Shown here: positions 15,232 through 19,076 of the stretch, in pieces | How positions within the stretch are numbered: position 1 is the first letter of the stretch | How the letters are laid out: every line of letters begins with the position of its first letter | Position numbers and translations under genes: made by a program | Notes under the pieces: generated by a model | The model's input: only the letters and a program-made list of their open reading frames with translations | What the model was told of the DNA's origin: nothing | Database searches by the model: none | From: Prosthecobacter dejongeii | GTDB lineage: Bacteria > Verrucomicrobiota > Verrucomicrobiia > Verrucomicrobiales > Verrucomicrobiaceae | NCBI RefSeq assembly: GCF_014203045.1 | Contig: NZ_JACHIF010000011.1 | Coordinates: 124,001 to 188,000 of the forward strand | DNA length: 64,000 nucleotides | Reading direction: 5' to 3'

Positions 15232-16191
15232 ATGCCGCCTCCCTACTCCATCCTCACCGCTGAGTCGCCGGTGCTCTATCGGCGTGATTCGCATCTCTTG
15301 AATGCTTTCGACGAGTTGCTACATGACTTCCTCAGCAAAGGAGGGCCGCGCCCGCCAGAATACAGCGTGCTCAATCGCGCCGTCCGTCACTTGGGGGATG
15401 CTGTGCGTGGGGGCAGCCTGAGCCTGGAGGAAGTCTCGGATTACGTGCGCGAAATGACGCAACTGCACCTGCCTGGTACCATGCAGGCTGAGGCGCTCGC
15501 CCGCAAATATGGCTACAGCGGTGATTTTGAAATCATCGACCATATCTATACCCGGCGAACACAGACAGATCCAAATCTGCGCTTATGGGATCTTTATTTT
15601 CATAGCCAAGCGGCCCCGGTCGCTGTGCGGAATCGCAAAGCCTACTTCCAAGACTTAATGGCCAGCCACCTGGAGCATCACCCTAGGGGGCAACCCCTCT
15701 CTGTCCTTAATGTGGCAAGCGGCCCGGCGCGGGATGTGCGGGAATTTTTCATGAACACTCCCGACGCGGACGTGCAGATTGATTGTGTGGATATGGACGC
15801 TCATGCCATCGCTTATGCTCAAAATCTCTGCACACCTTGGGAATCCAGGTTGCGCTTTCACCACCGCAATGTCCTGCGTTTTGTCCCCACACGCGGGTAT
15901 GATCTCACTTGGTCTGCCGGTTTGTTTGATTATCTGAGCGATCGGCTTTTTGTCCATGTGCTGAAGGCCATGATGGCCGTGACCAAGCCCGGCGGAGAGG
16001 TGGTGGTGGGGAACTTTTCAGACTTCAACCCGAGCCGCGATTACATGGAACTGCTGGGCCACTGGCAGCTCATTCATCGCAGCCGGGAGACTTTAACCGC
16101 CTTAGCAGCCAGAGCTGGGGCCTCCCCAGACCAAATCCAAATTCACTGGGAGCCTGAAGGCGTGAATTATTTTTTACATATTCAACGCTAA
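15232..16191 (+). CDS. SAM-dependent methyltransferase, PhcB-like (fatty-acid methyl ester signal synthase type)
   Basis: 319 aa. A helical N-terminal part of about 150 residues precedes a class I methyltransferase fold: motif I SVLNVASGPARDV (about 158-170), the acidic strand end QIDCVDMDAHAIAYA, then YDLTWSAGLFDYLSDRLF and MAVTKPGGEVVVGNFSDFNPSRDYME. This set fits proteins usually named extracellular-factor 3-hydroxypalmitate methyl ester synthase (PhcB of Ralstonia). PhcB methylates a 3-hydroxy fatty acid to make a diffusible quorum signal. The assignment is strengthened by the histidine kinase and receiver/kinase genes directly downstream, the partners seen in the Ralstonia locus. The acyl substrate is unknown; another small-molecule methyltransferase remains possible. 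The start follows an AT-rich leader. Confidence 0.7.
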   Translation: MPPPYSILTAESPVLYRRDSHLLNAFDELLHDFLSKGGPRPPEYSVLNRAVRHLGDAVRGGSLSLEEVSDYVREMTQLHLPGTMQAEALARKYGYSGDFEIIDHIYTRRTQTDPNLRLWDLYFHSQAAPVAVRNRKAYFQDLMASHLEHHPRGQPLSVLNVASGPARDVREFFMNTPDADVQIDCVDMDAHAIAYAQNLCTPWESRLRFHHRNVLRFVPTRGYDLTWSAGLFDYLSDRLFVHVLKAMMAVTKPGGEVVVGNFSDFNPSRDYMELLGHWQLIHRSRETLTALAARAGASPDQIQIHWEPEGVNYFLHIQR

Positions 16192-16290
16192 ACTTTAATT
16201 CCCCATAGATCTGAAGAAAATTCGTAGAATATTGACTTTAAACCACATAGCAAGGGCGTGCTGCGCCCGGCAAAAGACCCAAAGAATTAG

Positions 16291-16318
16291 TTGCTAGCCT
16301 TTCTCGATCCAGTATAAT
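16291..16318 (+). promoter_or_regulatory. Candidate sigma-70 promoter before the histidine kinase gene
   Basis: TTGCTA (16291-16296) and TATAAT (16313-16318) are separated by 16 bp. Transcription would begin near 16325, only about 14 nt before the GTG at 16339, implying a very short leader, or use of a start further downstream. The kinase and regulator could then be transcribed separately from the methyltransferase. Confidence 0.4.
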
Positions 16319-16338
16319 TTACAATAATTATACAAATT

Positions 16339-17826
16339 GTGATTGCTCTAACAACCAAGTCACCTAATACGGCTCCGCTGCACTTCCCTGCTGCGACACG
16401 TGAGGTGCCTGTGATTTCCAGAGCAGCCCCGCCTATTGATCCAAAAATTCTCGCAGAAGCGGAAAAATCAGCTCGCTTCGAGGGAGAGCTACAAGAGCTC
16501 AATATGCGGAATGCACGATTGGGAGCCTGGTTCGTCATGCTCTTGGTCCCGTTCTGTGCGGTGTTGGATTGGCTGGCCTACCCCACGCATTTCAGGGAGT
16601 TTGTGTTGCTGCGCATTCTCTGTTCAGCCATGTGTATTCCGTTGCTCTTGGCTCTCGATCGTCCCTGGGCAGCCCGTTATCACCGCGTTTATCCCGTGAT
16701 TTTGCCCTTGCTGCCAGCCTTGGCCATCTGCCTGATGATTTACTTCTCAGGCGATGGCAGTTCCAGCTATTACGCCGGGCTCATGCTCTGCCTTGTCGGT
16801 ACCTCCTTTGTCTTTCATTGGACGTTCCGGGAGATTGGAATCACCGTCGCTCTGGTGCTGCTGTTTTATTTCGCAGCGACGATTCCCAATCTCCGTTACG
16901 ATGGTCACCTCAGCTCCATCGGTCTATTTATCAATAACACGCTCTTCATCCTGCTGACCTGCGTGATTCTTTATTGCGGCAGTCGGCAGCACCACGCCAT
17001 CCGTCTGCGGGAATTTGTGAACCGCTGCAAAGTCGAGGCGCAACGGGAGGAACTGAGCCGCCGCAATGAGGAACTTTCCGCCACACTCAAACGTCTTCGT
17101 GAAACCGAAGCTCAATTAAATCAAAGTGAGAAACTGGCCTCCATCGGTCGGCTAAGCGCTGGCATCGTTCATGAGATCAATAATCCCCTGAACTTTGTTA
17201 AATCTGCGCTTTTCGTCCTGAAGAAAAAGACCAAAAACCTCCCGCCTGAAACTGTGGAGTCCCTGGGACTCATCCTCACGGACATCGGTGAAGGAGTGGA
17301 CCGCGTGGCCTCCATCGTTTCTGACCTACGCACGTTTGCGCATCCGGAGAACAAGGGCTCCTCCCCTGTCAATTTGAGTCAAACGGTGGCCAAAGTGAAT
17401 CGTCTCATGGCCAAGCAGATCGGCGATGCAGAAGCCCTGCTACACTGCGAAGTCCCGGCGGATCTCATAGCTTTTGGAGATGAAAACCACATCATTCAAA
17501 TTTTGATCAACCTTGTTCAAAACAGTCTGGATGCCTTGCAAGGACACCCCCATCCAGAAATTACCCTGAGTGCGATGCAAGAGGGTGACGAACTCGTTTT
17601 GCGCGTTCGTGACAATGGCACCGGGATACCAGAGGAACACTTGCAGCGCATTTTTGACCCTTTCTTCACCACCAAAGAAGTAGGCCAGGGCATGGGCCTC
17701 GGCTTGAGTCTTTGTTATCGAATGATGCAGGGCATGAACGGGTCTATCACTGCGGCTAGCCAGACTGGAACCTTCACTGAATTTACCCTTCGCTTTAAAC
17801 CCGCCGCCGCCCCCGCAGCCGCATGA
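16339..17826 (+). CDS. Six-TM sensor histidine kinase, PhcS/LqsS/CqsS-like architecture
   Basis: 495 aa from a GTG; no Shine-Dalgarno is visible and a later start is possible (for example GTG at 16402). After a cytoplasmic N-terminus, six hydrophobic segments occupy about residues 61-213 with short loops and no periplasmic domain, the architecture of autoinducer kinases for hydrophobic signals. A coiled-coil linker (about 222-262) leads to the kinase core: H-box AGIVHEINNPLNF (His278), N-box NLVQNSLDAL, G1 RDNGTGIP, F-box FDPFFTTKEVGQ and G2 GMGLGLSL, all intact. It should autophosphorylate and signal to the next gene, whose ATG overlaps its stop (ATGA). The gap from the methyltransferase is 147 bp. 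A role as receptor for the methylated product is inferred from gene order. Confidence 0.85.
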   Translation: MIALTTKSPNTAPLHFPAATREVPVISRAAPPIDPKILAEAEKSARFEGELQELNMRNARLGAWFVMLLVPFCAVLDWLAYPTHFREFVLLRILCSAMCIPLLLALDRPWAARYHRVYPVILPLLPALAICLMIYFSGDGSSSYYAGLMLCLVGTSFVFHWTFREIGITVALVLLFYFAATIPNLRYDGHLSSIGLFINNTLFILLTCVILYCGSRQHHAIRLREFVNRCKVEAQREELSRRNEELSATLKRLRETEAQLNQSEKLASIGRLSAGIVHEINNPLNFVKSALFVLKKKTKNLPPETVESLGLILTDIGEGVDRVASIVSDLRTFAHPENKGSSPVNLSQTVAKVNRLMAKQIGDAEALLHCEVPADLIAFGDENHIIQILINLVQNSLDALQGHPHPEITLSAMQEGDELVLRVRDNGTGIPEEHLQRIFDPFFTTKEVGQGMGLGLSLCYRMMQGMNGSITAASQTGTFTEFTLRFKPAAAPAAA

Positions 17827-19076
17827 ATCCCCCCCCTTTAGCTAACTACCACGTGCTCTACGTGGATGATGAGGAGAAAGCGCTCCATTACTTCAGACAG
17901 ATGTTTGAGGATGAATTCATCATCCACACCGCCAGCAATGCCGCCGATGGTTACCGCATTCTAGAAAATTACGGTCCGCAGATCGGTGTGTTGCTGACAG
18001 ACCAACGCATGCCTGGAGAAAGCGGGGTCGAACTGATGGACCGTGCCCGTAGGCTGCACCCCAATCTTGTTCGCATTCTCGTCACCGCATTTACCGATTA
18101 CCAAACTGCGGTGAAAGCAGTCAATGAAGGACGCGCTTACCGTTACCTACACAAGCCCCTGGACCCTGAGCAACTGGCCGCAGTGCTACGCCAGGGGATG
18201 GAATATTACGAGACCCTGCAAGAGCGCGAAGGTCTGCTAACTCAAAATGCGGAAAACATCCGCACAACTTTGATGGCAGACCGAGTCGCAGGCATGGGCA
18301 TCATGGCTGAAGGACTGAATCACCACCTGCGCAATGCACTCACCGTCGTCCGGGCCTTCATTGACTTAGCGCCGATGAAGCTGATGGAAGAGATTGACGC
18401 GAGGCCCCCGCGCGATCCAAATTTTTGGGTCGAAACACAGCATCAGGCACAAGCACAGATTGAGCGGATCCAGACCCTGCTGAACCACTTGGCCCACGCC
18501 TCCCACGCACGGAAACTGAATCGGCAAGATACGGTGTCTCTCCCAGCTTTGCTTGAGGAGACTTTAAACACTTACATCGGCCATTTTCAGGAGAAAAACA
18601 TTCGGGTGGAGTTCGATATCTCCCCTACCCTCCCTCCGCTATTGGTACATGAGGAGCGATTCCGCCAACTTTGGCGCCTACTTTTCATTGAGGAGATCAC
18701 CCACCTGCATCCGGGAGATCGTGTGGTGGTGAGGGCCCGCATGGAAAGAGATGCCTCCGGACAAGAGCAGGCGGTGATGGTCCTCACAGACAATGGCGGA
18801 TGGGGGGCCCAAGACCGAGCCGCAAACTTGTTCGATCCCTTTTTCACCCGCAGTCGCAAGCCTGATGACTTTGGTGTCAACATGATGGCCTGCTACGTCA
18901 CCCTTCACCTGCATGGCGGCAGCATCGAGGCCAAGCGATTAGAACCTCAAGGACTTGAGCTCACCATGCGATTACCGCTGGATCCCAACCAAAGCACTCA
19001 GGAGGCCAACGATTTTTTTCTTCACGCCACCCAGCATGAGCAGCGGTGGCAGAAACGAGAAGAACTGGCGGCTTAG
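17823..19076 (+). CDS. Receiver domain fused to histidine-kinase-like domain, PhcR/PhcQ-like
   Basis: 417 aa, start set by the ATGA overlap with the kinase gene. Residues 8-125 are a complete receiver: acidic D15/D16, phosphoacceptor D60 (LLTDQRMPG), Thr in LVTAFTD and Lys in HKPLDP. The rest resembles a histidine kinase: an H-box-like GLNHHLRNALTVV (His167), then an ATPase-like domain. The ATPase boxes are worn: the N-box region reads RQLWRLLFIEEITHL without the asparagine pair, G1 is TDNGGWG, and the glycine-rich G2 is replaced by FGVNMMACY. No DNA-binding domain is present. Ralstonia PhcR is likewise a receiver with a C-terminal kinase-like domain. It probably passes phosphate on or acts by protein contact rather than as a full kinase. 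Confidence 0.8.
   Translation: MNPPPLANYHVLYVDDEEKALHYFRQMFEDEFIIHTASNAADGYRILENYGPQIGVLLTDQRMPGESGVELMDRARRLHPNLVRILVTAFTDYQTAVKAVNEGRAYRYLHKPLDPEQLAAVLRQGMEYYETLQEREGLLTQNAENIRTTLMADRVAGMGIMAEGLNHHLRNALTVVRAFIDLAPMKLMEEIDARPPRDPNFWVETQHQAQAQIERIQTLLNHLAHASHARKLNRQDTVSLPALLEETLNTYIGHFQEKNIRVEFDISPTLPPLLVHEERFRQLWRLLFIEEITHLHPGDRVVVRARMERDASGQEQAVMVLTDNGGWGAQDRAANLFDPFFTRSRKPDDFGVNMMACYVTLHLHGGSIEAKRLEPQGLELTMRLPLDPNQSTQEANDFFLHATQHEQRWQKREELAA

Follow-up and report, generated by a model that had tools for sequence, protein, structure and literature searches.

The window analysed here, a 64,000-nucleotide stretch of the Prosthecobacter dejongeii genome, contains three consecutive genes on the same strand, originally predicted to form a PhcB-PhcS-PhcR-like signalling locus. 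The genome gives three matches above cut-off to TIGR02599, a Verru_Chthon cassette family with no match above cut-off in any control genome, as expected of a verrucomicrobium. The features are as follows.

15232–16191, + strand: short class I SAM methyltransferase, 319 amino acids, a distant PhcB-family paralogue.
16192–16338, + strand: gap of 147 bp between methyltransferase and kinase genes (138–161 bp in three relatives that share this gene order).
16339–17826, + strand: PhcS-type sensor histidine kinase, 495 amino acids, GTG start.
16459–17058, + strand: six-TM sensor domain, kinase residues 41–240, homologous to the PhcS N-terminal domain.
17170–17172, + strand: predicted phospho-acceptor His278 of the kinase, in LSAGIVHEINNP (in PhcS, LAAGLLHEVNNP).
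17823–17826, + strand: ATGA overlap in which the kinase gene ends and the regulator gene starts.
17823–19076, + strand: PhcQ/PhcR-like regulator, 417 amino acids, with a receiver (Asp60) and a degenerate histidine-kinase-like domain.

Pfam assigned the first product to the class I methyltransferases (Methyltransf_25, 2e-8). The kinase contains HisKA (1.2e-8, with ‘HEINNPLNF’) and an intact HATPase_c (3.8e-26); six hydrophobic segments with short loops span residues 58–217 and no periplasmic domain was recognised by Pfam, as had been predicted. The predicted ATGA overlap of the kinase and regulator genes was also read directly; of nine relatives checked, six likewise have a 4-base overlap, one has a 1-base overlap and two have the genes 4–5 bases apart. 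In the regulator, Response_reg (9.8e-19) is followed by weak HisKA/HATPase_c matches, and the Pfam domain scan showed no DNA-binding domain. The anticipated fusion of a receiver to a kinase-like domain is therefore present as a domain plan, although the second part is degenerate: the histidine is retained in ‘NHHLRNAL’, and the N-box asparagine and second glycine box are missing. A second regulator (a separate PhcQ gene) is absent 3′ of the first, where the next genes lie on the opposite strand. Promoter and terminator scans gave chance-level results only, and the methyltransferase and kinase genes are a candidate operon across the 147-bp gap. The three genes themselves are far beyond chance, because they are 80–95% identical in the nearest species and their products match phc proteins at E values of 1e-17 to 1e-26.

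Plain Pfam, NCBIfam and PDB searches did not separate PhcB from other methyltransferases, and our phc references started from a tblastn search of plasmids. This returned mostly unrelated rhizobial short methyltransferases and a single phc-like operon, from Paraburkholderia graminis, encoding a methyltransferase (468 amino acids), a six-TM kinase and two successive receivers. Scanning named genomes with an alignment of the P. graminis methyltransferase and its relatives yielded 80 loci, nearly all from Burkholderiales, among them Cupriavidus necator (L083) and Cupriavidus pinatubonensis (L085), the latter presumably the species to which strain JMP134 belongs. Both Cupriavidus loci have the gene order B-S-R-Q, with lengths of 463, 443, 377 and 335 amino acids in L085. 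We read them as phc because this order and these lengths fit the published values for PhcB (464–468), PhcR (368–374) and PhcQ (336–337 amino acids) (PMC8578825). JMP134 has a complete Phc system, 56–75% identical to that of Ralstonia solanacearum (PMC2842291). Cupriavidus PhcB serves here as the stand-in for the R. solanacearum protein, a choice based on gene order, protein lengths and the published identity. We then searched whole genomes of Cupriavidus, Paraburkholderia and Janthinobacterium with the window genes.

The sensor domain of the kinase gave the clearest result. An HMM built from 75 PhcS TM regions matched the window kinase at 1.3e-22, and profile–profile comparison of the PhcS and window-type TM domains agreed (99.5%, E 2.7e-22, 167 columns). 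Across the whole genome of P. dejongeii, a PhcS TM profile found only this kinase and one other, on contig C2. In the reverse direction, a profile of the window-type TM domain had PhcS as its first hit (1e-18 to 1e-20) in each of five betaproteobacterial genomes. The window kinase thus combines the PhcS layout of six TM segments and no periplasmic domain with a homologous sensor domain. The original prediction had proposed comparing the kinase TM domain with PhcS, LqsS and CqsS, and these searches place the kinase clearly nearer PhcS than a CqsS/LqsS-type kinase.

CqsS and LqsS, the kinases of alpha-hydroxyketone systems, are likewise six-TM proteins without a periplasmic domain, and their TM similarity to the window kinase is distant: the sole other nameable match of the window-type profile was a C. 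necator kinase adjoining a CqsA/LqsA-like synthase, at 4e-5. We rejected an assignment to this group on that difference in E value. CqsS and LqsS are partnered by a PLP-dependent synthase (CqsA/LqsA), whereas the kinase gene here lies next to a methyltransferase gene, and the window’s gene list includes no CqsA/LqsA-type synthase.

Whole-genome searches with the regulator found PhcQ first in all three genomes (1e-25 to 1e-26) and PhcR second in both Cupriavidus genomes. The protein follows the PhcR domain plan, with a receiver slightly nearer PhcQ. As the kinase TM domain finds PhcS and the regulator finds PhcQ in such searches, the pair is, judged by sequence, a genuine PhcS/PhcQ-R-type sensor module outside Proteobacteria.

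The methyltransferase is related to PhcB at a greater distance. In three Cupriavidus genomes it matches PhcB alone, with 26% identity across 239 positions, and the PhcB HMM matches the product of 15232–16191 at 1.4e-23, with homology confined to the methyltransferase domain (residues ~90–316 against PhcB 218–459). The motifs GYxGD, NVxxGPA, AGLFDYLSD, NP...ME....W and GVNxF are retained. At 319 amino acids, compared with 463–484 for PhcB, the enzyme lacks the PhcB N-terminal domain; this domain, which marks proteins of the PhcB clade (463–468 amino acids), is present in the C2 PhcB of the same genome. In the methyltransferase tree, the window enzyme groups with its orthologues from the genus (100/97), apart from the clade that joins PhcB with the verrucomicrobial full-length homologues (98/90). 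Orthology with PhcB is rejected on this separate placement. What survives of the predicted PhcB-like enzyme is its family membership, by motifs and by its only Cupriavidus relative, and we regard it as a distant PhcB-family paralogue.

AlphaFold predicted a class I methyltransferase core in both the window enzyme and PhcB, the former being poorly predicted before residue 125, and Foldseek with the PhcB model returned generic methyltransferases. Residues 10–85 of the C. pinatubonensis PhcB model (L085:6501-7892), a part missing from the window enzyme, fold with moderate confidence into six strands that may make up a PilZ-like barrel. The superfamily of the window enzyme also includes short PhcB-like methyltransferases from Rhizobium, from Deinococcus and from a PKS on an Enterobacter plasmid, which likewise lack the PhcB N-terminal domain. 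Such genes elsewhere lie beside those for c-di-GMP enzymes, for a desaturase or for a PKS and, unlike the window gene, have no adjacent PhcS. The Enterobacter ludwigii plasmid PKS (L213:179-3316) ends in a PhcB-like methyltransferase domain. In one genome (G002, L046:5118-7228), a paralogue of the short methyltransferase precedes a fatty-acid desaturase gene with a 4-base overlap.

Distribution across the genus bears on whether the short methyltransferase makes the signal for the receptor next to it, as its dedicated synthase, in a self-contained PhcB-PhcS-PhcR-like system that perhaps uses a different ester. Co-occurrence is perfect among 25 near-complete genus genomes: 21 carry both methyltransferase and kinase and 4 carry neither, in counts that ignore phylogeny. 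The methyltransferase adjoins the kinase on the same strand and in B-S-R order in four species (G000, G033, G018 and G248), and the PhcB-family motifs are kept. These four are the only ones, however; the methyltransferase and the kinase–regulator pair are each conserved across the genus, usually at separate places, and in G237 the methyltransferase keeps this position and its exchanger-gene neighbour, with the kinase on a different contig. Together with the 147-bp gap, the position of the enzyme outside the PhcB clade and the company kept by the kinase’s nearest relatives outside the genus, this makes a self-contained system unlikely. Those relatives are accompanied, by linkage or within one genome, by another PhcB type that is in part fused to a receiver, and the methyltransferase and TM trees concur in connecting the window-type kinase clade with it. 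Since the window methyltransferase falls outside the PhcB clade and is usually unlinked to the kinase, the two could be accidental neighbours here. The claim that this is the PhcB-PhcS-PhcR locus is not supported, given the separate clade, the missing N-terminal domain and a kinase adjacency that is lineage-specific. The Ralstonia gene order is real in the window and confined to a few close relatives, its parts being unlinked in most of the genus.

A fuller locus lies elsewhere in the same genome and is kept across the genus. On contig C2 (L036:6809-12235), a PhcB of 484 amino acids, 38% identical to C. pinatubonensis PhcB (461 positions) and 40% to that of P. graminis, is followed by a hybrid PhcS of 895 amino acids (TM-HK-REC-HK) and a receiver–kinase regulator of 421 amino acids. 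The window shares with it a PhcB-type methyltransferase, a PhcS-type kinase and a receiver–kinase regulator; the C2 PhcB is full-length and the C2 kinase expanded, whereas the window kinase keeps to the plainer layout of PhcS. The predicted occurrence of Phc-type machinery outside Proteobacteria is thus better backed by the C2 locus than by the window. Because this locus is in the same genome, Phc-type communication is probably found far beyond the proteobacteria.

Of 388 genomes sampled across the phylum, 22 encode a full-length PhcB homologue, and in 20 of the loci examined a PhcS-type kinase directly adjoins a PhcB homologue. This adjacency of the TM domain’s relatives to PhcB homologues weighs against the idea that the kinase senses a non-quorum cue, such as the state of the membrane or a lipid from a host, and resembles phc through shared membrane-sensor ancestry only. 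Six-TM sensor domains do serve many ligands, and the window kinase has weak MASE8 similarity. PhcS is nevertheless the best match in whole genomes, by at least 13 orders of magnitude in the one genome with a CqsS/LqsS-type runner-up, and we consider a non-quorum role improbable and quorum sensing the likely function by homology.

In six genomes (G180, G088, G338, G369, G388 and G097; L234-L239), a type I PKS of ~2,090 amino acids (2,603 in G369) is encoded directly upstream of PhcB. The two of that type that were fully scanned have the architecture KS-AT-DH-ER-KR-ACP without a thioesterase, a domain absent from all three PhcB-upstream PKSs scanned in full. The KR-ACP end would offer a 3-hydroxyacyl-ACP, the supposed substrate of PhcB. 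A FadL/OMPP1 gene lies near PhcB in ten loci (L050-L052, L169-L172, L174, L234 and L235) and is the genome’s only FadL in 5 of the 10 genomes checked. In rhizobia, FadL is reported to affect extracellular long-chain AHLs (PMC9938287). The PKS upstream and FadL nearby suggest that, in those relatives, the substrate is an acyl-ACP and the product hydrophobic. The window’s genome has no FadL, and neither the window locus nor the C2 locus has a PKS beside it. N-terminally extended PhcB homologues were found in three loci (L184:2089-4146, L053:7498-9507 and L054:6600-8471), with a receiver domain in the first two.

Our preferred explanation, to which we give a probability of roughly 0.68, is that the window kinase–regulator pair (16339–19076) is a second, paralogous receptor arm in a Phc-type quorum-sensing network that works through a hydrophobic ester and has its fuller locus on C2. 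Signal chemistry, the enzyme feeding the receptor, the direction of signalling and the output are all parts of it that we infer. A PhcB-type enzyme would methylate a 3-hydroxyacyl-type chain to give a hydrophobic ester; its source would most likely be the C2 PhcB, and possibly the adjacent short methyltransferase, perhaps making a variant. The ester would leave the cell, enter the kinase's six-TM domain inside the membrane and alter autophosphorylation at His278, from which phosphate would pass to Asp60 of the regulator. The regulator may then act through protein contact, not DNA binding, as proposed for PhcR/PhcQ on PhcA. Counting against this explanation are the lack of FadL and of a locus-adjacent PKS, the degenerate kinase part of the regulator and the usual unlinking of methyltransferase and kinase.

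In a narrower form of the same explanation, which we place not far short of even odds, the receptor pair lost its own synthase gene or left it behind and hears the C2 PhcB product or neighbours’ esters, the short methyltransferase being an unrelated lipid-tailoring enzyme. Both trees link the window-type kinase clade with genomes carrying the receiver–PhcB fusion or their relatives (G266, G052 and G283), a PhcB search found no such fusion in the window’s genome, and the desaturase neighbour in G002 fits lipid tailoring. Against this narrower form stands the joint occurrence of methyltransferase and kinase in the genus, along with their having become adjacent in one lineage.

Compared with Phc of Ralstonia and Cupriavidus (phcBSRQ and phcA), the window has in common a six-TM kinase, a receiver-plus-kinase regulator, a PhcB-family methyltransferase and the order B-S-R. 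It differs in a short methyltransferase outside the PhcB clade, in a single regulator, closest to PhcQ, that replaces PhcR and PhcQ, and in an order limited to few species of another phylum. The signal of Phc is a 3-hydroxy fatty-acid methyl ester and its output the LysR-type protein PhcA; the window has no known PhcA, and LysR proteins are too common for an informative homology call.

In the methyltransferase tree, with full-length PhcB sampled from this phylum and the Burkholderiales, Burkholderiales PhcB nests inside verrucomicrobial sequences. Phc-type quorum sensing might be old and diverse in this phylum, with forms of PhcB that are fed by a PKS, linked to FadL or fused to a receiver, and the Ralstonia/Cupriavidus phcBSRQ a horizontally acquired branch, a proposal that we make tentatively and hold to be somewhat doubtful. 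If it is true, the window illustrates how receptor and synthase modules were duplicated, unlinked and re-paired.

Quorum sensing by fatty-acid methyl esters is known in the plant pathogen Ralstonia, in Cupriavidus and in their close relatives, and our literature search found no Phc system described for Verrucomicrobiota. The presence in this phylum of PhcS-type receptors, of full-length PhcB and of regulators to match would add a new group of signalling bacteria, with testable signal chemistry in the relatives where a dedicated polyketide synthase may feed PhcB. The verrucomicrobial Phc-type genes also suggest a possible source of the Ralstonia virulence switch.
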